From Neolewinella lacunae (lineage in GTDB: Bacteria > Bacteroidota > Bacteroidia > Chitinophagales > Saprospiraceae), in NCBI RefSeq assembly GCF_014349155.1, contig NZ_JACSIT010000152.1, forward strand, positions 1-64,000: 64,000 bases of DNA. Direction: 5' to 3'. Shown here piece by piece: positions 3,020-63,003 of the stretch (within the stretch, counting starts at the first letter, position 1; each line of letters opens with the position of its first letter). Both the position numbers and the translations under genes were made by a program. Under the pieces are notes generated by a model, which searched no databases, had not been told where the DNA came from, and saw only the letters and a list, made by a program, of their open reading frames with translations.

Positions 3020-3066
3020 AACTCCCCCCTTCGGGGGGTCGGGGGGGAGCACCTGCGGCCGCGCCC
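3020..3066 (+). repeat. Composite C/G hairpin plus 18-base dispersed repeat (copy 1)
   Basis: A CTCCCCCC / GGGGGGGAG hairpin runs directly into the 18-base core at 3049-3066 (exact, plus orientation). Nearly the same ~45-base block recurs at 53772-53817 upstream of serS. Here it lies between the T9SS cargo gene and the SPT-like gene, about 50 bases upstream of that gene's -7 element. Confidence 0.9.
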
Positions 3067-3116
3067 ATCAAACGCCCTCCCCCGGGCGAGATTAGCAAAA
3101 TGCTGCCTACATTTCG

Positions 3117-9000: not shown

Positions 9001-9380
9001 CCGCCGCCGTAGCTGGCCGAGTTGCGGGGGTTCCCTTCGCCGGTGCCCGCCCAAATGATGCTGGGGTTGGCGTCGCTGACGGCCACGGCCCCGATGCCGA
9101 GGTACTTCTGCCGGTCAAAAATGGGCTCGAAACTGATGCCGCCGTTGCGGCTCGTCCAGAGGCCTCCGCTGGCGGTGCCAACGTAGAAAATGTCCTTATT
9201 CTGGGGGTGTACATCGATGGCCGTCACGCGGCCGCTCATTCCCGCCGGACCGATGCTGCGCGGGGCCAACTCATCCCAGTATTTCAGGTTGATCGGACCT
9301 TGCTGGGCCAGCAGCTGGGCGCTGACGCAGGTGCAAAGGAAGAAGAAAAGAGCAATGGAAGACAGAGTAGTGCGTCTCAT
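6009..9380 (-). CDS. Secreted sortilin/VPS10-like Asp-box (BNR) beta-propeller protein
   Basis: Exported protein of 1123 residues. A signal peptide (LSSIALFFFLCTCVSAQ) is followed by WDELAPRSIGPAGMSGR, typical of large Bacteroidota propeller proteins annotated as glycosyl hydrolase or VPS10 domain. At least eight Asp-box motifs of the S/T-x-D-x-G-x-T/S-W type are visible, e.g. SPDGGKSW, TTDGGKTW, THDGGDTW, STDGGSTW, SEDGGRTW and SRDGGDTW, consistent with one or two seven- to ten-bladed propellers. A Lys/Ala-rich linker near residues 800-850 separates them from a C-terminal alpha-helical part. No T9SS tail is evident. Function is probably binding or hydrolysis of a polymer in the periplasm or at the surface. 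The signal-peptide codons contain a two-mismatch copy of the 18-base dispersed repeat. Confidence 0.8.
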   Translation of the reverse strand: MRRTTLSSIALFFFLCTCVSAQLLAQQGPINLKYWDELAPRSIGPAGMSGRVTAIDVHPQNKDIFYVGTASGGLWTSRNGGISFEPIFDRQKYLGIGAVAVSDANPSIIWAGTGEGNPRNSASYGGGIYKSPDGGKSWQHMGLEATRHIHRVLAHPTDADVAYAGALGSMWGPNKERGVYRTTDGGKTWENVLYIDEGTGIADLVMDPSNPRKIIAATWTFDRDPDFFNSGGPGSGIWITHDGGDTWERRTAKDGLPKGDLGRIGLAIAASKPNIVYALVEAKTNGLYKSTDGGSTWKLVTDKNIGDRPFYYAEIYVDPQNENRLFDVATYVSRSEDGGRTWQQIADYGNSVHPDHHAFWIDKDDPEFILDGNDGGMNISRDGGDTWHFAANLPLAQFYHINYDLSFPYNIGGGMQDNGSWVGPSQGLKAGGITDADWQEVYFGDGFDLIFKPGDPNTVYAASQGGALGRVNRRTGKTTSIRPVHPDGTFLRFNWNAPIAQSPTNDCTIYIGSQFVHKSTDCGDSWTIISPDLTTNDSTKQRQMSSGGLTIDATQAENHTTLLAIVPNRVGYGDNTLWVSSDDGKLHLTRDGGKNWTDLSKRLPGMTPGSWIPYIEPSPHRASEAFVVVNDYRRNDRQPMVFHTTDFGETFTRLVDESDVSGHALSIVQDPVEPKLLFLGTDQGLWVSFNYGKDWTHYNHTFPNVSVRDLKIHPREHDLIIGTFGRAAWILDDIRPFRAIAQSGVEMLRDSFAVFPAPDAYQWEYRSYQGTRFYAQGQFQGQDRRGGAMLSFYVMPQAPKAKGKMEAKAVPAMADAKGKKGEKAPAPAATATDKPDVSRLLAYPQAPAGVVEDLPTFSAAAMASQARPRAESPDPVEGPKGKVKIQVVDVQTGDTIRTYRITPQWGMNRTSWNMRRDGVSFPSRREAREDADPAPGASVTPGVYEVVMTYGKQVGKTLLTVHADPREKTAPNAFAEREKLQAELDTTIVRVDAAWTDLRNAGKSIKTVQGLLADAPKAVKDSLEKDAKALLKQIADLEEIYTEKEDLKGIQRNPTNLQSKLFEASRYIRQVEGQPSQMATVSLGHFQNAAADFVNKVELFMGGDFAAFRREVAAANLSPFGKL
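9317..9334 (-). repeat. Variant copy of the 18-base repeat in a signal peptide (2 mismatches)
   Basis: GCACCTGCGTCAGCGCCC on the minus strand, coding for the end of the signal peptide (…CTCVSAQ) of the Asp-box propeller gene. A TTGCTCTTTTC segment lies at the usual ~21-base spacing upstream. Confidence 0.6.
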
Positions 9381-12357: not shown

Positions 12358-12368
12358 CGCACGGCCCC

Positions 12369-12450
12369 CCTTCCCCCTTTAATCCCTTCCCCCTTTAATC
12401 CTTTCCCCCTTTAATCCCTTCCCCCTTTATTCCTTTACTCCCTCCTTCCG
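12369..12450 (+). repeat. Pyrimidine-rich simple-sequence array (about 16-base unit)
   Basis: Tandem copies of a CCCTTTAATCCCTTCC-like unit, about five in degenerate form, fill almost the whole gap between mutL and the rhomboid gene. The opposite strand has runs of five G and three G, so a G-quadruplex is possible. A related array is at 21366-21482. Confidence 0.85.
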
Positions 12451-12451
12451 T

Positions 12452-13353: not shown

Positions 13354-13371
13354 GCACCTGCGGCCGCGCCC
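13354..13371 (+). repeat. 18-base dispersed repeat, exact copy
   Basis: GCACCTGCGGCCGCGCCC in the 82-base gap between the convergent rhomboid and gldD genes. Its first bases pair with GGTGC just upstream to form a small hairpin. CCTTGCTCTTCCC lies 29 bases before the core. Confidence 0.95.
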
Positions 13372-17219: not shown

Positions 17220-17543
17220 GCCGCCAAGGTACAAAAATCCTGCGCTTGGGTGCTGCGGTCTCGTGGGCCGCTCAATGGCTTTTGCCGGGCGGTGTGTGAT
17301 GCGGGCGCGGTCGCAGGTGCTCAGAAAAGATGAGGAGCAAGGGAAGACCGCCAGGACTGTCCCTCACCCTTTTAGATTGATCCTGCGCCCGCCCCGCCTG
17401 CGAAGCGTTTAACCCTATTCCGCCCGATTCGTTACTATTCTTTTAAACCCTGGCCTCCTGCACAAGTTTTTCACCACCAACGGCGTAATATGCGGTGCTT
17501 TAAGGCTTAGCCGCCTTCGCTTCTTCACCGTGGCCCCCCTTAC
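17220..17543. other. Divergent intergenic region between the RDD gene and the histidine kinase
   Basis: 324 bases. It holds the near-consensus -7 element of the RDD gene at its left edge, one variant copy of the 18-base repeat (17303-17320), and no exact TANNTTTG for the kinase on the plus strand. I see no gene or RNA. Confidence 0.5.
17303..17320 (-). repeat. 18-base repeat, one mismatch
   Basis: GCACCTGCGACCGCGCCC on the minus strand, differing at one position inside the NotI-like palindrome. CTTGCTCCTCATCTTTTC lies 21 bases upstream of the core on the same strand, matching the extended repeat. Confidence 0.8.
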
Positions 17544-19974: not shown

Positions 19975-21345
19975 ATGACCCGATTCATTCCCTTTCTCAA
20001 GGCCGTATTTTGCCTTGTCTTGCTGCTGCTTATGGCGCTGCCGCAGGTGCAAGGGCAGGTGGACGGCAGTGCCCGCACCACCCGCCAGCTCGAGCTACTC
20101 GTAGCGGAGAACGAAGTCTTCGCCCAGGCCCACACCGGCTTTGTCTTGTACGACCTCGCTACCCAGGCCCCCGTCTACACCCACCAGCCCGACCACCGCT
20201 TCGTCCCCGCCAGCAACGTAAAACTCCTGACTTTTTTCGTGGCCCAACGCCTCCTCGGCAACCGCACCCCCGGCCTCTTTTACCAGGATTTCCCCGACCG
20301 TACCGAAGTCTGGGGAACGGGCTACCCCCTTGCCCTCCACCCCGATTTCGCAGCGTACGACGAACTCCGCCCCTGGCTGCTGCAAAGGACCAAGCCCCTC
20401 GTGCTCAATTTTCCCACTGACGCCGGTGCCGTCCCCCGCTACGGCGCGGGCTGGAGTTGGGACGATTTCAACGACGCCTACGTCTTCGAACGCTCTGCCT
20501 TCCCCCTCTACGGCAATAAGCTCTACCTCGATCTTTCCCCTGTCGACGCCGAAGGCCGGCAAATCCTCCTCGGCTCCCCGCCTTCCATTGCCGCCAGCCT
20601 CCAGCAGAGCACCCAACGCGAGCCCCTCATCACCCGCTCCGAATTTGGTAACGACTTCACCGTCGGGGCTAATTTTTTCCATCCTTCCACCTTCCCCATC
20701 GAGCGGCCCCTTCACCTCACGCCCTACCTGATCGCCAACGAACTGGCCAGCGCCTACCCCCAGGTACGCGTCAGCTCCGGCCAGTTGCCTTACCCCCCGC
20801 CCCCGCAACTCAGTACCCTGGAGGTTTCGCTCCCTGATACCATTTACCGCCGCCTGCTTCAGGAGAGCGACAATTTTCTGGCCGAGCAACTCCTCCTGCA
20901 GGCCGCTTCCCAACGTTATTTCCTCCCCGACGCCGAGCTCATCCTCGCCTACGCCCGCGATACCCTCCTGCCCAGCATCGGCATCAAAGACATCCGCTGG
21001 GCGGATGGCAGCGGACTGAGCCGCTACAGCTTGCTTTCTCCCCGCCACTTCGCCCAGGTACTAATGGCACTGGACCGGGAGGTGGGCCGGGAACGTCTCC
21101 TCAGCCTCCTCTCCGCCGGCGGAGTGAGCGGTACCCTCAAGAACCGCTTCGATGGCCGCTCAGAAACTTACGTCTGGGCCAAAACCGGCACCCTCCGCGG
21201 CGTCAGCGCCGTCAGCGGACTACTTAAAACCAAACGCGGACGCTGGCTGGCCTTCAGCTTTTTACACAACAATTTTGTGGGCACTTCCCGACCCTACTTC
21301 ATCCAAATGGAGCGTACCCTCGAATGGTGCTACGATAACCTTTAA
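19975..21345 (+). CDS. dacB: D-Ala-D-Ala carboxypeptidase/endopeptidase, PBP4 (DacB) type
   Basis: Exported peptidoglycan hydrolase of 456 residues that trims or cuts cross-links in the cell wall. Signal peptide at 8-28 (…LLLLLMALPQVQGQ). The three active-site motifs of class C penicillin-binding proteins are present: SxxK in PASNVKLLT (Ser80, Lys83), SxN in QESDNFLAEQLL (about residue 300) and KTG in AKTGTLRGVSAVSG (about 402). It has its own predicted promoter with a structured leader, just downstream of the RprXY-like operon, and ends in a pyrimidine array shared with the convergent mnmG. Confidence 0.9.
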   Translation: MTRFIPFLKAVFCLVLLLLMALPQVQGQVDGSARTTRQLELLVAENEVFAQAHTGFVLYDLATQAPVYTHQPDHRFVPASNVKLLTFFVAQRLLGNRTPGLFYQDFPDRTEVWGTGYPLALHPDFAAYDELRPWLLQRTKPLVLNFPTDAGAVPRYGAGWSWDDFNDAYVFERSAFPLYGNKLYLDLSPVDAEGRQILLGSPPSIAASLQQSTQREPLITRSEFGNDFTVGANFFHPSTFPIERPLHLTPYLIANELASAYPQVRVSSGQLPYPPPPQLSTLEVSLPDTIYRRLLQESDNFLAEQLLLQAASQRYFLPDAELILAYARDTLLPSIGIKDIRWADGSGLSRYSLLSPRHFAQVLMALDREVGRERLLSLLSAGGVSGTLKNRFDGRSETYVWAKTGTLRGVSAVSGLLKTKRGRWLAFSFLHNNFVGTSRPYFIQMERTLEWCYDNL

Positions 21346-21365
21346 GCCACTGACTGCGCCAGTGC

Positions 21366-21482
21366 CCCTTCCCCCTTTAATCCCTTCCCCCTTTCTCCTT
21401 TGATCCTTTCCCCCCTTAATCCCTTCCCCCTTTCTCCTTTGATCCTTTCCCCCCTTAATCCCTTCCCCCTTTAATCCTTTAC
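21366..21482 (+). repeat. Pyrimidine-rich simple-sequence array between convergent dacB and mnmG
   Basis: CCCTTTAATCCCTTCC-type units alternate with a variant containing TTTCTCCTTTGATCC. A ~39-base block is present twice in nearly identical form. The array runs into the mnmG stop codon (21479-21481). The opposite strand is G-rich with many GGG and GGGGG runs. Confidence 0.85.
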
Positions 21483-23344
21483 CTACCCAGGTGAATGAGC
21501 AACACGCTAACGTCGGCCGGACTGACCCCACTGATCCGGCTGGCCTGGCCAATGGTAGCGGGCTTAAGGTCATTGAGTTTTTGCCGGGCCTCTTTGCTCA
21601 GGTTGGAAAGCGTTTCGTAGTCGAACGCAGCGCTGAGTTTGATGCCTTCCAGGCGGTTCATTTTGTGGACGGTCTCGCGCTCCCGGTCAATGTAGCCTTC
21701 GTACTTCATGGTCACCTCCGCCAGGTTTAGGATCTCGGCATCGTAGGGCGCCAGGAAGTTGGCCAGGGCGGGCAGTTCCCGGGCCAAGCCGGCAAGGCTC
21801 ATCTCCGGCCGGGTAAGTACGGAAGACAGCTTCACGCCTTGCTTCAGGGGAGCCGTTCCACTGGCCGCTAAAAAGCCATTCAGTTGGTCGGGGGAAACGC
21901 TGTGGTTGCGGAGTTCTTCCTGAATGGCCGCCACGCCCCGCCGCTTTTCGTCTACCCGGGCCATTCGGGCGTCCATATTTGCCACGCCCAAGGCCGCAGC
22001 CAGCGGCGTGAGCCGGAGGTCGGCATCGTCCTGCCGCAGCAAGATGCGGTATTCCGCCCGGCTGGTAAACATGCGGTAAGGTTCTTTGGTGCCCTTGTTG
22101 ATGAGATCATCGATGAGCACCCCGATGTAGGCCTCACTGCGCTTCAGCACCACGGGCTCCCGCTCCTGTACTGCCAGGGCGGCGTTTATCCCCGCCATCA
22201 TGCCCTGGCAGCCCGCTTCTTCGTACCCCGTTGTGCCGTTGATCTGCCCGGCGAAGTATAGGCGGGGCACCCGGCGGGTTTCCAGGGTGGCATTCAACTG
22301 GGTAGGCGGAAAGAAGTCATACTCAATGGCGTAGCCGGGGCGGAACATTTTAGCGTTCTCAAATCCCTCAATCTTGCGCAGGGCCTTGTACTGTACGTCT
22401 TCCGGCAGGCTGGAGCTGAAGCCATTGACGTAAATCTCGCAGGTGTTGCGTCCCTCCGGTTCCACGAAGAGCTGGTGGCGGTCGCGGCCGGCAAAGCGGT
22501 CGATCTTATCTTCGATACTGGGGCAGTAGCGAGGGCCCAAGCCCCGGATGCGGCCATTGAACATGGGGCTCCGGTCAAAACCTTCCCGCAGGGTAGCGTG
22601 GACGGCCTCGCTGGTGTAGGTCATGTAGCAAGGCAGTTGATCGCGCAACTCCGGCGTATCGGTGTAACTGAAGCGGCCGGGGTTCTCGTCGCCCGGCTGG
22701 ATTTCCATGCGGCTGTAGTCCAGGGTACGCCCGTCAAGGCGGGCGGGAGTGCCCGTTTTCATCCGCCCACTTTCAAAGCCCAGTTCCACGAGCTGTTCGG
22801 TAATGCCGCTGGCGGCGCGCTCCCCGGCCCGGCCGCCACCAAATTGCTTTTCGCCGATGTGGATGATGCCGTTGAGGAAGGTTCCGTTGGTCAGTACCAC
22901 CGATCTGCCGGGGATTTCCAGGCCGAGACCCGTACGGACCCCCGCTGCCCGGCCGTCTTTAAGCACCAGCCCCGTCACCATCTCCTGCCAGAAATCTACG
23001 TTGGGGTGGGCCTCCAGCTTTTCTCGCCAGTTCAGGGCAAATGCCATGCGGTCACTCTGGGCCCGCGGGCTCCACATTGCCGGACCCTTACTCATATTCA
23101 GGAGGCGAAACTGCACCATCGTCTCATCCGTGACGATACCCGAATAACCTCCCATGGCATCAATCTCCCGCACAATTTGTCCCTTGCCTACTCCCCCCAT
23201 TGCCGGGTTGCAACTCATCTGGGCGATGGTCTGCATATTCATCGTAGCCAGCAGCACCTTAGCCCCCAGATTGGCGGCGGCAATAGCGGCCTCACAACCG
23301 GCGTGGCCAGCACCGACAACGATGACATCGTAGGTTGGAAACAT
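21479..23344 (-). CDS. mnmG: tRNA uridine-5-carboxymethylaminomethyl modification enzyme MnmG (GidA)
   Basis: FAD- and NADH-dependent enzyme that, with MnmE, modifies U34 in the wobble position of several tRNAs; 621 residues, the usual length. The N-terminal FAD-binding motif VVGAGHAGCEAA is at about residues 9-20. Family signatures include the CNPAMGGVGKG block, GTPARLDGRTLDYS and GYEEAGCQGMMAGINAAL. The C-terminal helical MnmE-binding part ends in ATIGQASRISGVSPADVSVLLIHLGR. The start ATG at 23344 leads straight into the FAD fold. It follows recA at ~160 bases, separated by a terminator. Confidence 0.96.
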   Translation of the reverse strand: MFPTYDVIVVGAGHAGCEAAIAAANLGAKVLLATMNMQTIAQMSCNPAMGGVGKGQIVREIDAMGGYSGIVTDETMVQFRLLNMSKGPAMWSPRAQSDRMAFALNWREKLEAHPNVDFWQEMVTGLVLKDGRAAGVRTGLGLEIPGRSVVLTNGTFLNGIIHIGEKQFGGGRAGERAASGITEQLVELGFESGRMKTGTPARLDGRTLDYSRMEIQPGDENPGRFSYTDTPELRDQLPCYMTYTSEAVHATLREGFDRSPMFNGRIRGLGPRYCPSIEDKIDRFAGRDRHQLFVEPEGRNTCEIYVNGFSSSLPEDVQYKALRKIEGFENAKMFRPGYAIEYDFFPPTQLNATLETRRVPRLYFAGQINGTTGYEEAGCQGMMAGINAALAVQEREPVVLKRSEAYIGVLIDDLINKGTKEPYRMFTSRAEYRILLRQDDADLRLTPLAAALGVANMDARMARVDEKRRGVAAIQEELRNHSVSPDQLNGFLAASGTAPLKQGVKLSSVLTRPEMSLAGLARELPALANFLAPYDAEILNLAEVTMKYEGYIDRERETVHKMNRLEGIKLSAAFDYETLSNLSKEARQKLNDLKPATIGQASRISGVSPADVSVLLIHLGR

Positions 23345-24827: not shown

Positions 24828-24845
24828 GCACCTGCGGCCGCGCCC
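24828..24845 (+). repeat. 18-base dispersed repeat, exact copy
   Basis: Intergenic between the T9SS type-B gene and recA. CTTGCTTTTTGTCC starts exactly 22 bases before the core, so this is a full-length extended copy. Confidence 0.95.
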
Positions 24846-24940: not shown

Positions 24941-27900
24941 CTAGCGCAGTACCGTGACGTCTCCCCGGTAGAGCAGACGGGCATCGTCGAGGAACTCTAC
25001 TTCAATGACGTAGACGAAGACGCCAGGATTCACTGTTTTGCCATTCTGGCCTTCGCCTTCCCAGAGTTTGATGCCGTCCAGGCAGTTCGGTTCGAGGTTA
25101 TCGGCCTGAAAAACGACGCCGCCCCAGCGGTCAAAGACCTGCACCGAACGCACGGTACGCACGCCCTGGCAAGCGAAGATGCGGAAGTCTTCGTTGCGGC
25201 CGTCGCGGTTGGGGCTGAATACGTTGGGAATGTAAACGTTGCGGTTGGCGTCCACGTCAACGAAAATGTTGGCGAAGGCCTGGCAACCATTGGCGTTCGT
25301 TACCCGGAAGGTATAGTCGCGGCTTTCGAAGGGGAAAAGCATGGGGTTGCGGACGGTATCGGAGCTGAGGAAGTCGGCCGGCGTCCACAGATAGCTGTAC
25401 ACATCACCAGCGGGGCTGATCAGCGGGTTGAGTTGCGTCAGGCTATCCCCCAGCTCCACGGTGATCTCACTGGGCAGATCGATCAGGATTTGCGGTGGCT
25501 GGTTGACACTGAAGGTCTGCTCGGCCGTACAACCCACGCTATCGAAAACAGTGACGAGGATTTCCCCCGCAAACGCACTGCCCACCTGGCCCACGGGAAT
25601 ACGGAATCCGTCGTTATTGACCGAGAAGGTAAAGTCGGCAATGCTGGTTGAAGTGCCCCCAAAAGCGGTGTCGATCAAAACCGGCGTCGTTTCCCCGAAA
25701 CAGAGCGGCTCCTCGATGGGCAAGACGTTGAAGGTGATGCCCTCCGGCTCGCCGATGGTGTAGCTGACGCTGTCCTGGCAACCTTCTACGTCGGTTACCG
25801 TCACGCGGTAAGCGCCCGGAGCTAAACCATTCGCCGTGTCGTCGTTGCCTCCGGCTACGTTGCCCGACCAGGTGTAGGGCATCGCCGCAAGGTTGTTGTT
25901 ATTGACGCTGCTGACGAAAACGCTGATGCGGCCGTTCATATCGCCCGCACAGCGGACCGTTGGCGTGGTCGCCACCGGGTCGATGGAAAGCGTCAGCGGG
26001 TCTGGCTGGCGGATGGTGAAGTTGATGGGGGCGGGAGAACAGCCGTTCTCGTCCGTCACCGCCACCGTATACATCGTCCCGGCGGGCAAGCCCGTAATGG
26101 TATTGCCCACTTCCGGGGAACCTGACCAACTGAAGGCATAAGCTCCGGTGCCGCCGGTGACGTTGAGCGTAGCCGTACCGTCGGACAAGCCATTGCAGCT
26201 CACCTGGGTGGTGACGAGGTCAGTGGCAAAGTCTTCGGGCGCGCGGATCGTATCGGTGAAGGACGCTGTACAGACACCATCGGTCACGCGGACGGTCACG
26301 GGCCCGCGGCGCAGGCCGGATTCGGTGCTCTGGGTGGTACTGAAGTCGGCCGTACCGCTGGTCCAGAGGAAGTCGAAGGTGCCCGGCGTACCGTCGGCGT
26401 ATTCGGCCAGGAACGTCGCCTCGCCGTCCATCGTCTGGTCGTCAGGGCAGCTCACCGGGGTCAGTTGGAACTGGCCGGAAATCATCACCGGATCAACCAA
26501 AACAAAAGTGGTATCGAAGGGAGGCAAACAACCGTTGCCATCGGTAATGGTCACGGAGTAGGTGCCGGCCGTAAGGCTTAGCAGCGTAGGATTCTGTACC
26601 GGGGCGGCCAGGGGGTTGGTAGACCAGACGTAGTTGTAGGTTCCATTGGCGTTGGGGGTGCCGCCCCCGGGATTGAGGAAAATGCTGCCGTTGGCATCCC
26701 CCGGGCACTGCGGGTCGGTAGCGACAAAATCGCGGAGGAACACTTCGCCGGGGCTGACGACGGTGCCGACCTGGAAAGAAGAGCAGGCGTTTGAAGTCAC
26801 CACCTCTACGGCGTAGTTGCCCACGGGCAGGTTGTTCTGGGTCGTTGGTCCCGTTGCCACGGGGCTGCCGAGCGTATTGTCGGGATTGAGGCGGTACCAG
26901 GTGATGGAGGTGATGGTTTCGCCCTGGGGCGGAACGGCTACCACGGTCAGTTGGCCATCCACATCTCCGGGGCAGGAGATGAAGGAAGTGTCAATGGGGT
27001 TGATTTGCGCGCCCGCAGGTGCAAGGATCCGGAAACGAGCAGTGTCCGTACAGCCGTTGAGGTCCGTCACGATGAGCACGTAGTTGGTATCGGCACTCAG
27101 GCCCATCAGCAGGTTGCCGGGGGTAAGGGTATCCAGCGGCATGTCGAGGCTGTCGTTTACCCAACGGTACTGGTAAGGGGCCGTGCCGCCCGTGACCGTT
27201 GCCTGCGCCGAGCCGTCCATGCCCACCGTACACGTTTCGTTGCGGAGGGTAAGCGGATCGGCAATTTCAAGCATTGGCGGCTGGAAAACCTCGAAAGTGT
27301 CCGTCGTTTCACAGCCCGCCGGATCGCTATCCCGCAGTACCACGACGTAGCGGCCCACGTCAAGCCCCGTGAAGGCAAAAGGCACGCTGTTGTTGGTAAT
27401 TTCCTGCTCCGCACCCGTATTGAAGGGGTTGAGACTGATCAGGCGGACAAAATAATTGCCCACCGGAGGCGCCCCCGTAGCCGTGCCGTTAACGCGAATG
27501 ACCCCGTCGGCTGCCCCGAAGCAAGAAACACTGTCCTGGCTGGATACGATGAACAGCGTTTTGAGGGCATTAACCACAAAGTTGGCCGTATCGGCACAAC
27601 CGCGCGAGTCGGTCACAAAAACTTCGTAGGCCCCGGGCAGGAGGTTGTTGCGAATGGAACTCGTCACGCCGTTGTCGGAGCCCAGTGCCCCCGGCCATTG
27701 GAAGGTGTAGGGGCCGGTGCCGCCGTCGGCAGTGATGCTGATCGATCCATCGGGAACTCCCGTACAGGTGGCACTGCTGACGGCGTCTGCGGGGTTATCA
27801 GGGCGTACGCGCACGTCCGAGGGTTGGGCCAGGTTGCCCGTGTCTTCACTGCGGCAGTTGCCGTTGGGGCCGGTGACGGTTACCGCGTACTGGCCGGCAG

Positions 27901-30009: not shown

Positions 30010-31389
30010 TCAGGGTGTAATGCCGTATTTTTCCAGGCGGCGGTAGAGTGCGGCGCGGGTGAGGCCGAGCTCGCGGGCGGTGGCGGTGATCTCGGCGCCG
30101 TTGCGGGCCAGCGCCGCCCGAATCATGCGGATTTCCATCTCCTCGAGGGTGATGCCGCCGAGGGCCGGTTGGGCCATCCGCCCGGTGTCGCGGGATTGGC
30201 GATCGAGGTCTTCGACCTGGATGACGTTGGCGGGCGCGAGGATGGCGGTACGCTCCATCAGGTTTTGCAGCTGGCGGATGTTGCCCGCAAAGGGCTGATG
30301 GCGGAGCCATTGGATGGCGGCGGACCCGAGTTGCAGGGTGGGCCGGTCGTAGCGCTTGCGGGCGCTGGCCAGGAAGTGCTCGGCCAGCAGGGGGATGTCT
30401 TCCGGCCGTTCCCGCAGCGGCGGCAGGTGCAGGTGGATGAGGTTGATGCGGTAGAGGAGGTCTTCGCGGAAGGTGCCAGCGGCAACCATAGCGTGGAGGT
30501 CGCGGCTGGTAGCGCTGATGATGCGCACGTCGGTAGTGCGGGGCTTACTGTCGCCGAGGCGTTCGTACTGCCGCTCTTGTAACACCCGCAGCAATTTAAC
30601 CTGGGCGGCGGGGTCGAGGTCGCCGATTTCATCGAGAAAGAGGGTGCCCCCTTCGGCGAGTTCGAAGCGGCCTTTGCGGTCGGCGCGGGCATCGGTAAAA
30701 GCTCCTGCTTTGTGGCCGAACAACTCACTTTCGAAGAGGCCGGCCGGTACACCGCCGAGGTTGACGGCCACGAAGGGCCTGGCTGCCCGGCGGGAGGCGG
30801 CGTGGATGGCTTCGGCCACCAGTTCTTTGCCCGTTCCGCTCTCGCCGGTGATGACCACGGAGGCCTGGGTGGCGGCTACCCGGCGGGCCTGGTCCAGGAC
30901 GGCCAGCAAGGCCGGAGCCTTGCCGATGATGCCGGAGAAGGTATCGACCTCCATCGCTCCCTCGTTCCCTTCCCCGGCACCTGCGGCCGCGCCCCCGTGA
31001 CCAAAACCGGGCGGCAACTTATCCACCTGAATGGCTACGGCGTTGAGCAACTCGCGGTTGTCCCAAGGCTTGGCAATGAAATCACGGGCCCCCGCCTTCA
31101 TGCCTTCTACGGCCAGTTGGACCGTTGCCCAACCCGTCATCTGGATAACCGGCAGGCGGGGATAGGCCGCCAGGATCCGCTTGAGCAAGCCCATGCCGTC
31201 TTTGCCGCTGGTATCGATGGTGAAGTTCATGTCCAGCAAAACCAAAGCGGGCCGGTGCTCGGCGATGGCCGGCAGGGCATCCGCCATGCGGAACACGCTC
31301 TCGGCCCGGTAGCCCGCCCGCCGCAACAGCAACTCCAGGCTGGCGGCCACCATGCGGTCGTCATCAACGATGAGGATGGTATGGTTCAT
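30010..31389 (-). CDS. NtrC-type sigma-54-dependent response regulator
   Basis: Transcription activator of 459 residues: receiver domain (phospho-acceptor Asp53 in LVLLDMNF, Lys107 in FIAKPWD), a Gly/Ala-rich linker (about 127-145), an AAA+ ATPase (Walker A GESGTGKE at 172-179, Walker B GGTLFLDEIGDL, arginine-finger region FREDLLYRINL) and a C-terminal Fis-type helix-turn-helix (ARELGLTRAALYRRLEKYGI). The sigma-54-contacting loop, GAFTGA in enteric activators, reads GAFTDA (219-224). It is the last gene of the efflux operon, 60 bases after the second permease, with no histidine kinase nearby. The linker codons 132-138 are an exact copy of the 18-base dispersed repeat. Confidence 0.9.
   Translation of the reverse strand: MNHTILIVDDDRMVAASLELLLRRAGYRAESVFRMADALPAIAEHRPALVLLDMNFTIDTSGKDGMGLLKRILAAYPRLPVIQMTGWATVQLAVEGMKAGARDFIAKPWDNRELLNAVAIQVDKLPPGFGHGGAAAGAGEGNEGAMEVDTFSGIIGKAPALLAVLDQARRVAATQASVVITGESGTGKELVAEAIHAASRRAARPFVAVNLGGVPAGLFESELFGHKAGAFTDARADRKGRFELAEGGTLFLDEIGDLDPAAQVKLLRVLQERQYERLGDSKPRTTDVRIISATSRDLHAMVAAGTFREDLLYRINLIHLHLPPLRERPEDIPLLAEHFLASARKRYDRPTLQLGSAAIQWLRHQPFAGNIRQLQNLMERTAILAPANVIQVEDLDRQSRDTGRMAQPALGGITLEEMEIRMIRAALARNGAEITATARELGLTRAALYRRLEKYGITP
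30977..30994 (+). repeat. 18-base dispersed repeat inside the NtrC-type gene, exact copy
   Basis: It codes, on the antisense side of the core, for Gly-Gly-Ala-Ala-Ala-Gly-Ala in the linker between receiver and ATPase. The extended element (CGCTCCCTCGTTCCC…, 22 bases upstream of the core) is also present, within the coding sequence. Confidence 0.95.
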
Positions 31390-32680: not shown

Positions 32681-34009
32681 TTAGCGTAGCGACTCCGCCA
32701 CGTTGGTCTTGCTCATCCGGTAGGCCGGCAGGATGCCCGAGAGGAAGCCGAAAATGATGATGACCAGCAGGAAGTAGAGGAAAACCTGGTAGGAATAGGA
32801 AAGGCGGGTGATGCCCAGCAAGTCGTTGGCATTGATGTAAGCAATCATGCCTACGGCAAAAGCCATACCGATGGCTCCCCCGATGAAGGTGAGGATCAGG
32901 TTCTCGAAAATGAACTGGTAGAGGATATCGCGCGAGTTGGCTCCGAAGGCTTTGCGCACCCCAATCTCACTCTTGCGCTCGTAGACCCGGCTGATGTTCA
33001 GGTTGACCAGGTTAAGCAGCGGCAACGCAACGAAGAGCAGGATAAGAATGCCGATGGGGATAAAGAGCATCCGCACGGCTTTTTTGGCGTCCCTTTCCCC
33101 CAACAAGCCCTGGGCGTAACCCGTAATGAAGGGCGCGTTGAACAGCTCCAGCGCATCGAAATATTCTTCGCCAGACATGTCATAGTTCTCCGCCAAAAAG
33201 TTGATTTCTTCCTGAAGCGCTTCCCGCTGGCCAGGGCTGGAAGCGAGCAATACGGCACTGAAGCCGCCGGAAAGTTCGTCACTATTGAGTTCGCGGGGGT
33301 CAACGTTGGTGATGGGCATGTAGATGTCCCCACCAAACAAAGGGCTATCCGTCAGGGGGCGGGCTACGATGCCCCGCACGCGGTATACCGCCGTGCCCAG
33401 GTCCATCTCCCGCCCAATCACACTGGCGCTGGCTTCCCCGAAGTAGGCTTTGGCCGCCTTGTCGGTCAGTACCACAACTTTGCTCGCTTGCGCATCGTCA
33501 TCGGCGTTGAGCGGACCGCCGTAGAGGAAGTCGAAATCGAAAATCTCCCAGTAATTGGCGTTGACGTAGTAGGCCGCAAACGAAAATTTTTGCCCGTTCA
33601 GGTAGCCGTCAATGAAGGCATTGTCGTTGTAAAAAGCATAGTTCTCCGCCGCCTTGAAATTGGTGAGGTTCTTCGTCACGAACTGGTAACTCATCGGCCC
33701 GTTGGAGGTGGAAACCACATCATCTTCGTAGGTCTCGGTCGTATCGTAGCGCACCTGCCCGTTATCCATAAATACGGTATCCACTTTCGTGATCGTATCC
33801 GTTTCCGTCCGCGTACGTTCCAGGCTGGGGACAAGCACGAGGCGGTCGCGATTGGTTAGTGGCTGGTTGGCACCCAGGGTAGCGTCAAACAGGGAAGTGA
33901 GCAGCATCAGGATCATCAAAGTGAAACTGATACCAAAAAGACTGATGAAAGTATACAGCGGCTTGCGCTTGAGGACCTTGAGGGCCAGGAGGAGATAGTT
34001 CTTGATCAT
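32681..34009 (-). CDS. ABC transporter permease, FtsX/MacB-like (first of two)
   Basis: Inner-membrane subunit of 442 residues. One helix near the N-terminus (YTFISLFGISFTLMILMLLTSLF), a large periplasmic domain, and a C-terminal FtsX domain with the motif YERKSEIGVRKAFGANSRDI. It is homologous to, but clearly diverged from, the downstream permease, so the transporter is probably a heterodimer. The 148-base gap to the upstream ATPase gene is filled by a simple-sequence array, the only large gap in the operon. Confidence 0.85.
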   Translation of the reverse strand: MIKNYLLLALKVLKRKPLYTFISLFGISFTLMILMLLTSLFDATLGANQPLTNRDRLVLVPSLERTRTETDTITKVDTVFMDNGQVRYDTTETYEDDVVSTSNGPMSYQFVTKNLTNFKAAENYAFYNDNAFIDGYLNGQKFSFAAYYVNANYWEIFDFDFLYGGPLNADDDAQASKVVVLTDKAAKAYFGEASASVIGREMDLGTAVYRVRGIVARPLTDSPLFGGDIYMPITNVDPRELNSDELSGGFSAVLLASSPGQREALQEEINFLAENYDMSGEEYFDALELFNAPFITGYAQGLLGERDAKKAVRMLFIPIGILILLFVALPLLNLVNLNISRVYERKSEIGVRKAFGANSRDILYQFIFENLILTFIGGAIGMAFAVGMIAYINANDLLGITRLSYSYQVFLYFLLVIIIFGFLSGILPAYRMSKTNVAESLR

Positions 34010-34160
34010 AGTTCAGTAGTCTGGTAGTTCAGTAGTCTAATAGTTCATAGTCTAGTAGTGCAGTAGTTCAGTAATCTGTAGTTCATAGTCTAGTAGAGTA
34101 GTCTAATAGTCTATGTCCCGGAAGCAGAACTCCTCTATGAACTACTGAACTACTGAACTA
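34010..34160 (-). repeat. TAGTTCAGTAGTC-type tandem array with inverted end
   Basis: About nine degenerate copies of a 10-13-base unit (TAGTTCAGTAGTC, TAGTTCATAGTC and similar) run from 34009 to about 34113. The complementary order CTACTGAACTACTGAACTA occurs at 34140-34160. The two ends can pair over about 20 bases, forming a long hairpin between the ATPase and permease genes. The array starts immediately before the permease ATG. Confidence 0.85.
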
Positions 34161-34868: not shown

Positions 34869-36392
34869 TTATTCGCCCAGTGGGGCGTTGTTAATAAAGT
34901 CCCACAGCGTCAGCCGGGCGAGCCGGGCGTAGGTCTGCCAGTAAGCCCGCAGCGTGGCGGCGTAGGCGCGGGTGTTCTGGTCGCGAAACTGCTGGGCCAG
35001 CGTCAGTTCGGCCAGCGGGATGGCGCCCAGGGTGTAGCTTTCCTGGCTGATTTCAAAGCGCTCCTGCGCGAGGTCGCGGATGGCGGTGGCCAGGCTCAAT
35101 TCTTCCTGCACCGTTCGCCACTGTTCGAGGAGTTGAAGAAGCTCCGAGTTGAGGTCCTGCTCCGTACGCCGGGCAATTTCCCGCGTCAGCGTTTCGGCCG
35201 TGGCGGCGCGCTTGGTCAGGGCTTTGCGCTGGCCCCAATCCAGAATGGGCATGGTCAGGTTGACGCTCACGATGCGCTCGTCGCGGGGGTCCGTATAGAT
35301 GGGCGCCAATTCCTGGTCGTTGCGGATGAAGCCGAAGCTGGCCTCGATGTCGATACGGGGCCCAAGGTCGCGCCTGACCCGATCGACCTCCCGCTCTGCT
35401 TCCAGTGAGCGTTGGCGGACGGCGAGCAGTTCAGGACGGCGGGCATTCATCAGGGCCAGGGCTGCGGTGGCTTCGATGTCGCTTTCCACCTGGGCGTCGG
35501 GCAGTTCCGGACGCAGCAGTTCCTGGGCGTAGGGACGGCCCAGCAGTTGGTAGATGGCTGCGGAGGCCGCCGCCACCAAGCGCTCGGCGCGCAGCAGATT
35601 CTGCTCGGCGCTGGTCAGCTCCAGGCGCAGCTGCACCAGGTCGCCCCGGTTGATTTTGCCCAGGGCGTAACGCTCTTCCGCTACCGTGAAAAGCTGCTCG
35701 TTGGCCCGTTTATTGGTTTCGGCGATGCGGCGCTCCTGGTCGGCGTCAATCAGGTCGAAGAAAAGGAAGGTGGCCTCCAGCGCAGCGGCGGCTTTGGCTG
35801 CGGAAAGTTCGCGCTCGCTCACTTCGCGTTGCAGGGGCAGGAGGCGCCGGTCCCACTTCCAGGGATTGAAGGCCAGCAGGGGTTGGAGGAAGGAAAGGCG
35901 CAGGGGCGAGCCGTTGTAGCCCTTGTTGTTCTGGGCAAAGTTGTCCGTCCGTTGCAGGCGGCTTTCCAGGCGCAGCACGCCCCCCGTACCCGCCAGGCGC
36001 TGGGTGGCAAAAAGCCCTACGAAGCTGTTGTTCAGCTCAATTTCCCGGAAGGCTACCGTGCCATCGTCCTGGGTGACCTCCGTACTCGTTCGGTAGTAGT
36101 TGGGCAGGTTGGCCACCAGGTCCAGGCGGGGCCGCAGGCTGGCTTCGAAGGCGCTCAGTTCCAGGTTGGCGGCCTGCAATTCCTGGCGCGCCATCAGTAC
36201 TTCCAGCGCCATTTCGCTGGCCGTGCGTTGCAACTCCGTGAGGCTGATGCGGGTGACCGCTGGCGTTTCTTCCTGGGCGCGGCCGCAGGTGCTGGCCAAG
36301 GTGAAAAGAGCAAGGAAGGCCCAGCCCAGCACCCTCGCCCGCTGTCCGCGAAGGTTCCCACTTTGGTGTAATCGTTCCACTATTTTTTCCAT
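34869..36392 (-). CDS. TolC-family outer-membrane efflux protein
   Basis: Outer-membrane channel of 507 residues. Signal peptide ending …FLALFTLASTCGRA|Q. It has the two-fold repeat and heptad-rich helices of the OEP family (e.g. LELSAFEASLRPRLDLVANLPNYYR and DRVRRDLGPRIDIEASFGFI start the two halves). It forms the exit duct of the tripartite pump with the adaptor 30 bases upstream. The signal-peptide codons 34-40 are an exact 18-base dispersed repeat, and the preceding codons match its upstream extension. Confidence 0.9.
   Translation of the reverse strand: MEKIVERLHQSGNLRGQRARVLGWAFLALFTLASTCGRAQEETPAVTRISLTELQRTASEMALEVLMARQELQAANLELSAFEASLRPRLDLVANLPNYYRTSTEVTQDDGTVAFREIELNNSFVGLFATQRLAGTGGVLRLESRLQRTDNFAQNNKGYNGSPLRLSFLQPLLAFNPWKWDRRLLPLQREVSERELSAAKAAAALEATFLFFDLIDADQERRIAETNKRANEQLFTVAEERYALGKINRGDLVQLRLELTSAEQNLLRAERLVAAASAAIYQLLGRPYAQELLRPELPDAQVESDIEATAALALMNARRPELLAVRQRSLEAEREVDRVRRDLGPRIDIEASFGFIRNDQELAPIYTDPRDERIVSVNLTMPILDWGQRKALTKRAATAETLTREIARRTEQDLNSELLQLLEQWRTVQEELSLATAIRDLAQERFEISQESYTLGAIPLAELTLAQQFRDQNTRAYAATLRAYWQTYARLARLTLWDFINNAPLGE
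36275..36292 (-). repeat. 18-base dispersed repeat coding the TolC signal-peptide cleavage region, exact copy
   Basis: Minus-strand GCACCTGCGGCCGCGCCC encodes (S)TCGRA(Q). CTTGCTCTTTTC lies 22 bases upstream and encodes the hydrophobic core (LALF). This is the best full-length copy. Confidence 0.95.
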
Positions 36393-38526: not shown

Positions 38527-38544
38527 GCACCTGCGGCAGCGCCC
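38527..38544 (+). repeat. 18-base repeat, one mismatch
   Basis: GCACCTGCGGCAGCGCCC: the change breaks the NotI-like palindrome. Intergenic between convergent genes. Confidence 0.8.
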
Positions 38545-42832: not shown

Positions 42833-42850
42833 GGGCGCGGCCGCAGGTGC
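42833..42850 (-). repeat. 18-base dispersed repeat, exact copy
   Basis: About 80 bases upstream of the SNF2 gene, on its coding strand. CTTGCTATTTTG starts 24 bases before the core. Confidence 0.95.
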
Positions 42851-46943: not shown

Positions 46944-49589
46944 TCACAGGCTCCAATCTAAACTCAACAAGAAGAACCTCCCCAAAGCCGGCACCCGGTT
47001 TTCGAACACAAAAATATCGTTTACCGACTGGGTGACGAAAGCCGAACGGTTGGTGAGGTTGTAGATGCGGAGCCCCAACACCGCTTCCTGGTCTTTCCAC
47101 TGCATCCTGCGTTCAGCGCCCAAAAATGCTGCGGCTAACTGGTTGCGCTCGCCTTCCCGGTAGTTGGCAGTTTGGCTCAGGCCGGTGTATAGCCGCCCTT
47201 TTGCGAAGGTGTAGAGGAGTTGGGCCTCGGTATTCCAATTGGTGAAAAACCGTGATTCGCCCAATAAGCGGTTGACGCTCAAAAGGCTGTTGCCCTTCAG
47301 CCGCAGACGGGGAAATAGCAAAATACCACCCTCAAGGTTCGCCGTGTTGCGCCAGTATCGAAAGGCCAAAGTCTGTTCCGCCACCCCCAAATCTACCGCG
47401 CTGTAGCCACTGGATACGCGCAAGGCATAGTCCGTTTTCAGCGGCAATACAAAGATGCTGTAGCGGGCTTCCAGGCCCACGGCGCTGTTGCTGCCTCCGA
47501 ATTGCCAACTCGACACCAAAACATCACCCGCAAAATCAGTAGTAGCATTGGCCTGGTTCTTAGCACGGTTGGCGTAGCCAGAAAAGCGCCAGCTGCTCAA
47601 ATTGCGGTCGTTGCGCAGGGTGTAGCTGATCCGGCCGTTGAAATAGGTCCCCACCTCCGGGGCCGGTCCGCCCCGGACTATCTGGAATGGATCGGGGAAA
47701 TAGACGGTGGTAAGCAACAAATTGGCCAAGGTGGGGTAATTCCGGCCCGCCCGCAGGTTGACACTCAAGCGCCGCCCCAGCCGGGCCTCGCGGTCGAAAC
47801 CCAAGGAGAAATTGCTGGTCGTAGTGGGCAAGTCAGGGAAGGCGGCGTAGTTGTTGATCCGCAGGCTCGTCCCCAGCCGCAATTCCGTACGGTCGCGGAA
47901 ACTGTACTGGAGGGCGAGGGAAGGCGACCAGTACGTATTGCTCAAGTCTTCCAGGCTCAGTTGCTCCTTTCCCGCAGTAAGCTGGAAGGTGCTCAGTAGG
48001 TCCCCCTTTTTCCAAAGGATGCGGGCGGTGGCGTAGTCCCTGCGCTGCCGTCCGTCAATCCGCTGCTCAACGCGGGTGTTTTCCCGAAGCGAGAAATAAT
48101 TTGCCAGGGCAGGGTTTACGATCGTAGCAAAATAGTCCTGGGTCGTGGTGCCACTGGCTATTTCGGCTTGGGCAACCAGGTTGGGCCGGAGTTCCCGGCT
48201 GCCCAGCATTCGGAAAGTCGCGGTTTCTTCCCCGTCGCTCGCCATCGAGGATACTACTTCGTTATCATTTACGGTCCGCTCTTGAACGTCTGCGGCTGCG
48301 CGGTGCAGGCCGGTGAAAAGCTGGAGCGAAGTTTTCTGGTTGGGCGCGAGGTACTTCAGTTCCAGCTCCCCAGTGTAGTTTTTTTGCTCCCGTTGCAGCT
48401 GTCTTTCCAGCTGAAGGTCGTAGCGGGTGTCGTCGGCCACGTAATCCTGCCGATCGAGCAATTCCTGTTCCCGGGCCTTGCGGTAGCCGGTGAGGTTAGC
48501 GTTCAGGGTCCAGCTTTTTGCCAAGGCCGATTCGTGGCGCAGGGTGCCAAATGCGGTGCGCCCATTGTCCGTGTACTCCCGCCGCAGCCCGGCTTCGCTG
48601 AAGGGAGTTGGGGAAATCAGGGTGAGTTTTTCCGTCGCTGGCCGACGAAGGTCGCTGGCGGAGCGGTCGGCGTAATTCGCGTTGGCGGAGCCGTAGCCGA
48701 AATCGTTACCGACATTATCCAAATCGCCAATGAATATGCTTTTGTGGATGCGGTCGATGCGGTAAAGGCTCGCGTATGCGCTGTATTTTGCCCCGTCGCC
48801 GTAGCCTCCACCGGCAATGACGTTGCCCGCCAGTACGGACTTTACTGCTTCCTCCAGCTTGAGGTTCAGCACCACCGCCTGGGAGTTGTTGACGGAGCGG
48901 AGAACGGGGTTATCCTGGTACCGATCAATTACTTCGACCCGGCCAATATCCCGGGCGTTCAGGTTTTTGGAGCCCAGCTGGTAGTCGGCACCGAAAAGGT
49001 CGGAGCCTTCTACTAAAATGCGGTGCAGTGGTTTGCCGAATACTTCAATGGAGCCGTCGCTTTTCACTTCCACGCCGGGCAGTTTGCGCAGCACCTCCTC
49101 AATTTTGCGGTCGGTGCTGTCCCGGAAATCACGAACATTAAAAGTGGTGGTATCCGTTTTGGCCGTCACGGGTGCGCGGGCACCGCGCACGACGACGTCG
49201 GGCAGCTCATTTTTTGCTTTGCTCAGGCGTACGATGACGGCGCTTTCTTGGGGCAAATCCAGCAGCAAGGTGTCGGTTTGCATCCCCAGTGAGCGGCTGC
49301 GCAATTCTACGCGCCGCCGGCCCTTCGTGTCCAGTTGGAAAAGGCCCGCAGCATCGGTCAGAGCAAACAAAAGAATGCTATCCCGGCCGGGCGGGTGCAG
49401 CGTGATACTGGCAAAGGGCAGGGGAACTTGGTTTTCGTCCGTTAGGGTTCCCCGTAAAACATTTTGCTCAAGGGCATGCTCCGTTTGGGCGCGGACGCAG
49501 GTGCTGGCGAACAGGACAAGGAGCAGAGGAAGAAGGCCGGAAAGTTTCAATAGCCCCGTTTTGCTTTGTAGTCGCGGATGATGGTCCAC
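46944..49589 (-). CDS. TonB-receptor-like outer-membrane barrel with N-terminal carboxypeptidase-like regulatory domain
   Basis: Outer-membrane protein of 881 residues. Signal peptide …LLPLLLVLFASTCVRA|Q, then a carboxypeptidase-regulatory-like domain (GTLTDENQVPLPFASITL…), a plug-like region with EEVLRKLPGVEVKSDGSIEVFGKPLHRILVEGSDLFG, and a long C-terminal beta-barrel ending in an aromatic-terminated strand (FFLLSLDWSL). This architecture recurs beside GLPGLI genes in Bacteroidota. The ATG at 49589 overlaps the GLPGLI gene by 43 bases; a TTG at 49550 overlapping that gene's TGA (TTGA) gives a more compact signal peptide and is the alternative start. The signal-peptide codons contain a one-mismatch copy of the 18-base repeat. 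Cargo unknown. Confidence 0.8.
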   Translation of the reverse strand: MDHHPRLQSKTGLLKLSGLLPLLLVLFASTCVRAQTEHALEQNVLRGTLTDENQVPLPFASITLHPPGRDSILLFALTDAAGLFQLDTKGRRRVELRSRSLGMQTDTLLLDLPQESAVIVRLSKAKNELPDVVVRGARAPVTAKTDTTTFNVRDFRDSTDRKIEEVLRKLPGVEVKSDGSIEVFGKPLHRILVEGSDLFGADYQLGSKNLNARDIGRVEVIDRYQDNPVLRSVNNSQAVVLNLKLEEAVKSVLAGNVIAGGGYGDGAKYSAYASLYRIDRIHKSIFIGDLDNVGNDFGYGSANANYADRSASDLRRPATEKLTLISPTPFSEAGLRREYTDNGRTAFGTLRHESALAKSWTLNANLTGYRKAREQELLDRQDYVADDTRYDLQLERQLQREQKNYTGELELKYLAPNQKTSLQLFTGLHRAAADVQERTVNDNEVVSSMASDGEETATFRMLGSRELRPNLVAQAEIASGTTTQDYFATIVNPALANYFSLRENTRVEQRIDGRQRRDYATARILWKKGDLLSTFQLTAGKEQLSLEDLSNTYWSPSLALQYSFRDRTELRLGTSLRINNYAAFPDLPTTTSNFSLGFDREARLGRRLSVNLRAGRNYPTLANLLLTTVYFPDPFQIVRGGPAPEVGTYFNGRISYTLRNDRNLSSWRFSGYANRAKNQANATTDFAGDVLVSSWQFGGSNSAVGLEARYSIFVLPLKTDYALRVSSGYSAVDLGVAEQTLAFRYWRNTANLEGGILLFPRLRLKGNSLLSVNRLLGESRFFTNWNTEAQLLYTFAKGRLYTGLSQTANYREGERNQLAAAFLGAERRMQWKDQEAVLGLRIYNLTNRSAFVTQSVNDIFVFENRVPALGRFFLLSLDWSL
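49487..49504 (-). repeat. 18-base repeat in a signal peptide, one mismatch
   Basis: GCACCTGCGTCCGCGCCC on the minus strand, coding (S)TCVRA(Q) of the outer-membrane barrel gene. CTGCTCCTTGTCC begins 22 bases upstream. Confidence 0.85.
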
Positions 49590-53771: not shown

Positions 53772-53817
53772 TACTCCCCCCTCCGGGGGGCGGGGGGGAG
53801 CACCTGCGGCCGCGCCC
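53772..53817 (+). repeat. Composite C/G hairpin plus 18-base dispersed repeat (copy 2)
   Basis: ACTCCCCCCTCCGGGGGG then CGGGGGGGAG, then the exact 18-base core at 53800-53817. Matches the block at 3020-3066 nearly base for base. Located in the serS leader. Confidence 0.9.
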
Positions 53818-53895
53818 ACTGCTGCTGACCCCGTGCTTTGCCCCTGGGCCACTGTGTTTACTTCACTCGTTTAACCGCCCCACACCTTATCTGCC

Positions 53896-55990: not shown

Positions 55991-56008
55991 GGGCGCGGCC
56001 GCAGGTGC
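55991..56008 (-). repeat. 18-base dispersed repeat, exact copy
   Basis: Between the YugP-like gene and frr. CTTGCTTTTCCC begins 28 bases before the core on the minus strand, and the same frame reads FLAFPAAASPGTCGRAP, resembling the TolC signal peptide although no gene is present here. Confidence 0.95.
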
Positions 56009-62930: not shown

Positions 62931-62948
62931 GCACCTGCGGCCGCGCCC
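62931..62948 (+). repeat. 18-base dispersed repeat, exact copy (left arm of inverted pair)
   Basis: CTTGCTCCTCC starts 21 bases before the core. It pairs perfectly with the opposite-facing copy at 62986-63003. Confidence 0.95.
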
Positions 62949-62985: not shown

Positions 62986-63003
62986 GGGCGCGGCCGCAGG
63001 TGC
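62986..63003 (-). repeat. 18-base dispersed repeat, exact copy (right arm of inverted pair)
   Basis: Inverted relative to the copy at 62931, with 37 bases between. The pair can form an 18-base-pair GC-rich hairpin between two convergent genes, possibly serving as a terminator-like structure. Confidence 0.95.

Follow-up and report, generated by a model that had tools for sequence, protein, structure and literature searches.

A dispersed DNA word with species-level spellings in Neolewinella, a candidate uptake-sequence-like self-tag

Described uptake sequences and the Neolewinella word

To our knowledge, uptake-sequence systems are known from two proteobacterial families only and are pilus-dependent. 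REP/BIME elements are intergenic repeats that occur in many copies and form inverted pairs. The DNA uptake sequences (DUS) of the Neisseriaceae are described, in the excerpted text of the source, as present in hundreds to thousands of copies, with species dialects that share an inner core (PMC3630211). The excerpts of a second source report some inverted pairs, no chromosome polarity, and more non-coding copies than expected, and place uptake sequences at non-coding and little-constrained coding sites that arise by point mutation rather than insertion (PMC1939737). The USS of the Pasteurellaceae are abundant, with the copies inside genes biased to gene ends, according to a further excerpt (PMC2346458), and even spacing of uptake sequences is reported there by some and disputed by others (PMC2346458, PMC1939737). 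Within the Bacteroidota, the available part of a study of Riemerella columbina describes a competent bacterium that prefers its own DNA; it lists k-mers rich in A without settling what they do (PMC7965970). Our searches of the open-licence literature returned no paper on an uptake-sequence system in the Bacteroidota or the Saprospiraceae, or on dispersed repeats in Lewinella.

We analyzed a window, that is, a whole stretch of 64,000 nucleotides from contig C134 of the 5.8 Mb Neolewinella lacunae genome (G000, hereafter the own genome), together with the dispersed word that it carries. This word resembles the DUS in copy number, in having species dialects with a shared core, in its inverted pairs, in its lack of polarity, and in its non-coding excess. 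In contrast to the DUS of about 10 to 12 bases, it consists of 18 bases plus a loose pyrimidine tract; it further differs in belonging to the Bacteroidota, in lacking a detectable pilus platform in 21 genomes, in its in-frame siting within signal peptides, and in being known from sequence alone. Like the USS, it is abundant, but it has another sequence and belongs to another phylum; even spacing, a trait that is itself disputed for the USS, was observed for it in the own genome and not for the different word of the relative G205. It shares with REP/BIME elements its intergenic siting, many copies, and inverted pairs; unlike them, it is conserved and changed in place, has copies in coding DNA as well, and has a single 18-base core that on its own seems unlike a hairpin. 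Among the traits of DUS and USS, we found over-representation, both orientations without polarity, dialects with a shared core, and competence proteins of the inner membrane and cytoplasm (ComEC and DprA), and we did not find a type IV pilus machine. Because of this last result, the word would be classed as working like a DUS or USS rather than as a member of either.

We lean, with somewhat better than even confidence, toward the word being an uptake-sequence-like self-tag for which signal peptides are permissive coding sites. The genus would carry a DNA word whose spelling varies at the species level and whose behavior is that of a DNA uptake sequence: cells would prefer tagged DNA in uptake (or retain it preferentially in some other way) and then recombine it, so that copies accumulate. 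The word would change by point substitution and hence collect where sequence varies freely, in intergenic DNA and, within coding DNA, at tolerant sites such as signal peptides. Translated in one of its frames, it reads (hydrophobic)-T-C-x-x-A-Q, a pattern that an export signal at the N terminus would tolerate, and the copy in tolC would be one such site, neither copied out of genes nor inserted into genes. We infer that a bias in uptake is the driving force and that a receptor reads the word.

Table 1. The tolC gene and the copies of the dispersed word in the 64-kb window.
Feature	Position	Strand	Remarks
Intergenic copy, exact	3049..3066	+	adjoins CCCCCC/GGGGGG hairpin
Signal-peptide copy, 2 mismatches	9317..9334	-	MRRTTLSSIALFFFLC-TCVSAQ; ORF 6009-9380
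Intergenic copy, exact	13354..13371	+	
Intergenic copy, 1 mismatch	17303..17320	-	
Antisense copy, 2 mismatches	20033..20050	-	near 5' end of Peptidase_S13 gene (19975-21345)
Intergenic copy, exact	24828..24845	+	reads LAFCPLPRTCGRALP
Copy, 3 mismatches	27005-27022		other frame of long ORF; 16th match of the window
Antisense copy, exact	30977..30994	+	within ORF 30010-31389
tolC, outer membrane efflux protein	34869..36392	-	507 aa, ATG at 36392; Pfam OEP
Core GCACCTGCGGCCGCGCCC, exact (18 bases)	36275..36292	-	tolC signal peptide, reads S-TCGRA-Q
Pyrimidine tract CTTGCTCTTTTC	36303..36314	-	5' of core; part of tolC hydrophobic stretch
Intergenic copy, 1 mismatch	38527..38544	+	
Intergenic copy, exact	42833..42850	-	
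Signal-peptide copy, 1 mismatch	49487..49504	-	..LLVLFAS-TCVRAQ; ORF 46944-49589
Intergenic copy, exact	53800..53817	+	adjoins hairpin
Intergenic copy, exact	55991..56008	-	reads FLAFPAAASPGTCGRAP
Intergenic copy, exact	62931..62948	+	arm of inverted pair with 62986..63003
Intergenic copy, exact	62986..63003	-	arm of inverted pair with 62931..62948

Other repeats in the window are short tandem-like arrays of CCCTTCCCCCTTTAAT and TAGTTCAGTAGTCTA at 12352-12468, 21350-21496, and 34002-34160, and 45-base tandem repeats within a predicted gene at 52638-52907.

Abundance, spellings, and conservation in place

Allowing up to two mismatches, GCACCTGCGGCCGCGCCC occurred 1,260 times in the own genome, with 624 and 636 copies on the two strands, whereas the reversed pattern, used as a control in the same genome, gave 0 and 4 matches. 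The abundance of the word is thus far beyond chance, and the sequence-only reading was right to treat the tolC copy as part of a dispersed repeat, which extends genome-wide. Both strands were mixed on each of six contigs, and this balance disfavors a strand-polar motif of the Chi/KOPS type. For a closer look at siting, we took the window plus 40 other stretches of the own genome (799 kb), 863 kb in all, with genes called by home-made callers. This sample holds 236 copies (up to three mismatches), which sorted into 147 intergenic copies, 31 antisense and 39 sense copies in genes, and 19 copies in possible 5' extensions. The intergenic share differs from that of the USS of H. influenzae, 65% of which lie in open reading frames according to the cited excerpt (PMC1939737). 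The idea that motif-poor regions are foreign DNA was not supported: we sampled 10 proteins in three of the four largest gaps, and these belonged to housekeeping or other ordinary families, and no mobile-element families were among them.

The word is spread over the genus. The pattern GCACCTGCGNCCNCGCCC (up to one mismatch) had between 43 and 1,383 copies in 19 of the 21 genus genomes, and 6 and 3 copies in the other two, G205 and G207. Outside the genus, the first spelling did not exceed 6 copies per genome in the 195 non-genus genomes among 199 family genomes. A scan of named genomes returned at least 89 stretches with exact copies; among the 80 matches listed, 10 were single copies in unrelated taxa, and the others came from Neolewinella agarilytica, N. 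persica, N. aurantiaca, and MAGs labeled Lewinella, Saprospiraceae, or Bacteroidia.

Another spelling, GCACCTGCGCTCCGGCGC (up to two mismatches), was carried by G215 and G207 in 379 and 85 copies, and five other genomes searched had 0 to 44. We built iterated matrices on 80 to 240 kb per genome for nine genomes and obtained a predominant spelling in each (GCACCTGCGGCCGCGCCC in G000, GCACCTGCGTCCGCGCCC in G116, GCACCCGCGACCGCGCCC in G199, and CTACCTGCGCTCCGCCGC in G207, for instance), with CC[TC]GCG largely shared. The dialects are impure, as several genomes hold both spelling groups. G206 yielded nearly equal site numbers with the two groups of matrices (16 and 17 over 140 kb), its whole genome has 313 copies of the first spelling, and the second-spelling pattern ACCTGCGCNCCGNCGCC had 125, 150, and 74 copies in G006, G116, and G193. 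In none of 195 genomes outside the genus did ACCTGCGCNCCGNCGCC exceed 30 copies; its excess over the reversed control there (30 versus 0 in G020 and 23 versus 1 in G001) is putatively a codon-usage effect.

The own genome also holds the second spelling, that of G215, with 24 exact and 13 inexact copies of GCACCTGCGCTCCGGCGC at sites that include C134:222983, C134:247218, and C16:77767. These copies are possibly foreign DNA or a second word.

We found tolC in all 21 genus genomes and compared it in 20, leaving out the partial G213. The motif was present in the signal-peptide region of tolC in 18 of the 20, the two genomes without it being G205 and G214. Relatives poor in the first spelling do not have the same nucleotides at this place: G207 and G215 use the second spelling in their tolC signal peptides, and G205 has an ordinary one, ..LELLSAQ, without the motif. 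In each of the nine genomes with a matrix, the tolC copy passed the genome's own matrix, and its spelling group (A or B) was that of the genome. Within a group, matrices accepted the tolC copies of the other members, and a genome's own matrix was sometimes outscored. Across groups, the G206 copy passed the matrix of G116 and failed that of G207, while the G215 copy passed those of G116 and G006. These results indicate that the tolC matrices discriminate between two spelling groups and not between single species.

Next, we looked at whether sites keep their place between species. Aligned blocks with sites show 74 to 86% identity between G207 and G215. Sixteen of 18 strong G207 sites fell in aligned blocks, and 14 of these 16 passed the G215 matrix at the same place (two of the 14 with a gap in the core), while in the reverse direction 11 of 14 sites were shared and 4 of 18 lay outside blocks. 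Random positions passed the matrix in 9 of 2,676 and 19 of 2,706 cases. Identity was 0.82 in the cores versus 0.70 and 0.68 in the flanks. Between G207 and G206, 4 of 9 sites were shared, and 4 of 5 in the reverse direction. At some shared sites, the letters that differ are those that distinguish the spellings (G207 126521, CTACCTGCGCTCCGCCGC versus GCACCCGCGCGCCGGCGC, for example), and other sites have an identical or almost identical core in the two genomes. Protein conservation may help where shared sites fall in coding DNA.

The same question could be asked of the own-genome coding copies, 13 of 70 of which had an aligned orthologue among the retrieved loci; 3 of the 13 lie in signal peptides. 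Of the 10 copies outside signal peptides, none had its motif opposite a gap; 5 were ungapped over the stretch shown, and 5 had gaps nearby. Point mutation in place rather than insertion, as in uptake sequences, was thus what we saw between species in the cases examined, and the gain of copies by insertion, as in REP and mobile repeats, was not. These data bear on the view that the word is a small mobile or REP-like transposing element later adopted as a signal peptide, the first of two origins offered by the sequence-only reading. Composite copies whose cores abut hairpins do resemble modular repeat units, and the five gapped alignments could be read in the same way, but the 0 of 10 motifs opposite a gap, the 5 of 10 ungapped alignments, the orthologous sites kept in place (14 of 16), and a spacing more even than random (see below) all argue against it, and we regard it as decidedly improbable. 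A word changed by substitution, as expected of an uptake-sequence-like tag, appears to suit the alignments better than an inserting element.

Signal-peptide copies and coding phase

The tolC product matches the outer membrane efflux family (Pfam OEP, E value = 2.5e-36). An exact core encodes the cleavage region of its signal peptide, and the core and the CTTGCTCTTTTC tract share the tolC reading frame, giving AFLALFTLASTCGRAQ; in coordinates and translation, this agrees with what had been read from the sequence. The same holds for the claim that the repeat encodes both the hydrophobic core and the cleavage region, which we found not only in tolC but likewise, judging by eye, in 16 other genes of the 863 kb. 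These are 17 of the 24 sense copies in frame 0, the remaining 7 having been judged other than signal peptides, and they include one copy (C19 8771) with a poor hydrophobic stretch. Fifteen of the 17 read TC[VGL][RS]AQ, one TCVSAL, and one SCGRAQ. Over the ten codons before the core, their mean hydropathy was 2.34 in frame 0, with values above 1.6 in 15 of the 17 (0.88).

Among signal peptides with an A|Q end, the own genome had TC at positions -5 and -4 in 14 of 99, G205 in 0 of 21, and each of eight other genomes in 0 to 2 out of 6 to 22; with numbers this small and a crude predictor, the enrichment in the own genome is suggestive only. We also considered whether signal-peptide copies fill gaps in the spacing of the word, and found the case weak. 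Their median distance to the nearest other copy was 2,252, versus 1,126 for all gene starts (P value = 0.007), but the mean distance gave a P value of 0.056, and removing them changed the gap coefficient of variation (CV) from 0.581 to 0.601, within the range for random removal (0.559 to 0.634).

The sequence-only reading had held that intergenic copies keep much of the coding sense. It was correct that the copies at 55991 and 24828 read like signal peptides and that both are intergenic (by our own gene calls as well), but the 147 intergenic copies showed no clear coding-phase signal. Their core changes numbered 12, 43, and 19 at codon positions 1, 2, and 3, and 19 of the 74 were synonymous, against an expected fraction of 0.29 if changes were uniform. 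In the 110 intergenic copies free of hairpins, upstream hydropathy was 0.20 in the signal-peptide frame versus 0.38 and 0.18 in the other two, and fifteen open codons preceded the core in 89, 86, and 88 copies (frames 0, 1, and 2). A start codon followed by at least ten open codons was found in 52, 31, and 46 of the 110, a count that leans mildly to frame 0 over frame 1 and hardly over frame 2. On the 5' side of the core, the intergenic consensus is weak, with a loose C-rich tract at about -23 to -16 and CC..CCC blocks near the core, and the hydrophobic reading of the tract in signal peptides is this same DNA read in frame.

The second origin that had been offered, in which signal-peptide segments were copied into intergenic DNA, would account for the two intergenic copies that read like signal peptides and could draw on the count of starts with open frames (52 in frame 0 versus 31 in frame 1, with 46 in frame 2). 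However, neither the core changes nor the upstream hydropathy shows a coding-phase bias, and the spellings differ, since the intergenic GGCCGC corresponds, in most signal-peptide copies, to GTCAGC or GTCCGC. The intergenic copies therefore do not resemble copied signal peptides; the refuting criterion that the sequence-only reading itself had set already speaks against this origin, and we give it almost no credence.

Spacing, gene ends, and competence genes

With copies within 700 bases merged into one unit, the gap CV in the own genome was 0.60 at up to two mismatches and 0.58 at up to three, versus simulated means of 0.78 to 0.82 and 0.1 percentiles of 0.65 to 0.68. At up to one mismatch it was 0.68 versus 0.83 to 0.85, at the 0.1 percentile (0.68 to 0.69). 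Spacing is thus more even than random in the own genome, and a different word in G205, described below, was not evenly spaced (CV of 0.87, with close pairs not merged). Even spacing, together with sites that are conserved in place and no need for a pilus, would also be expected if the word were the binding site of a chromosome-organizing or gene-end DNA-binding protein whose specificity drifts between species and so creates the spellings. This is the main rival to an uptake-sequence-like tag, and we consider it unlikely but well within reason. More than 1,000 sites of 18 bases are many for such a protein, copies lie also within signal peptides and antisense in genes, and the G205 word lacks the even spacing.

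Siting relative to genes is of two kinds. The cores of 76 intergenic copies face the stop codon of an opposing gene (median distance, about 20 nt), and those of the other 71 face the start of a same-strand gene (median distance, 95 nt). Close pairs number 33, of which 26 are inverted with the cores outward, 6 are inverted with the cores inward, and 1 is on one strand. Nearness to stop codons and inverted pairs could fit a role in RNA or termination as well. The word might then be a transcription-end element (a terminator or 3' RNA element) placed after stop codons, with pairs and hairpin-linked copies forming strong hairpins; besides the 76 stop-facing copies and the 26 outward pairs, it is in keeping with this that, of the 35 C5-6/G6 hairpins that the 863 kb contain, 32 have GCACCTGCG in the next 60 bases. 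We nonetheless find it improbable, as 71 of the 147 intergenic copies face a same-strand gene, a median of 95 nt before its start, and as the 17 signal-peptide and 31 antisense copies are in places where termination would harm.

Among the hairpins themselves, a GC hairpin, CTCCCCCCTTCGGGGGGTCGGGGGGGA, directly abuts the core at window positions 3025-3067 and 53776-53818, and 37 of the 147 intergenic copies in the 863 kb are hairpin-linked. A second hairpin (CCCCTTTGGGGGTTGGGGGG) occurs 9 times and is followed by GCACCTGCG in all 9 cases.

Returning to an uptake-sequence-like tag as the preferred reading, we searched for competence machinery. ComEC was present in all 21 genus genomes and DprA in 20 (the genome without it is 55% complete), and both are common in control genomes too. 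The platform protein of type IV pili and type II secretion (PF00482) was detected in 0 of the 21 genus genomes, compared with 13 of 14 control genomes. The pilus/secretion ATPase family PF00437 had weak matches in 20 of 21 (barely above the cutoff in 11 of the 21, with a maximum of about 25.5 bits), lying in frames of about 300 to 1,070 aa, which we take as putative other ATPases. Together, these two profiles suggest that a pilus-based reader of the word is unlikely.

We put forward tentatively, at slightly short of even confidence, that Neolewinella species take up DNA with the help of long, species-spelled self-tags and without a type IV pilus, and that these tags would be the first uptake-sequence system in the Bacteroidota; the words would drift in place, signal peptides would be their coding refuges, and G205 would use a different word in the same way. 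If confirmed, this would be a DNA-uptake self-recognition tag new for the phylum, and a Bacteroidota genus that has much of the uptake signature but lacks the pilus platform would offer a route to a new DNA receptor. Sister species with different spellings would allow dialect change to be studied site by site, and, if the reading is true, a genome-wide force at the DNA level would be shaping protein signal sequences.

In 200 kb of G205, its word, TTGCTACTTTG.TAG..AAAA, had 72 sites, of which two overlap, and the reversed control had 2. Of the 17 readings of this word that are open from an ATG, we judged a few by eye to be signal peptides (MQRFILSALLLCSLTISNLLAQ and MQRIFLLSSLLLCFVFSLSAQ, for example), so that dispersed words may find a refuge in signal peptides generally, in the own genome as in G205. 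Written more fully, the word is approximately CA[TC]TGCTACTTTG.TAG[CT]CAAAA and occurs at 360 per Mb in the stretches analyzed (L212-L215 and L260-L265, 200 kb), on both strands; some of its sites form inverted pairs at short distance. The word is similar to the tract TTGCTCCTTGTCC, which lies upstream of many own-genome cores. A de novo search of 100 kb each in G062, G125, and G001 found no comparable short dispersed word. G152, which belongs to another genus, has a longer structured repeat, GCCGAGCAGACCTGCGAGC with variable flanking hairpins, in many copies within 100 kb (L276-L280).
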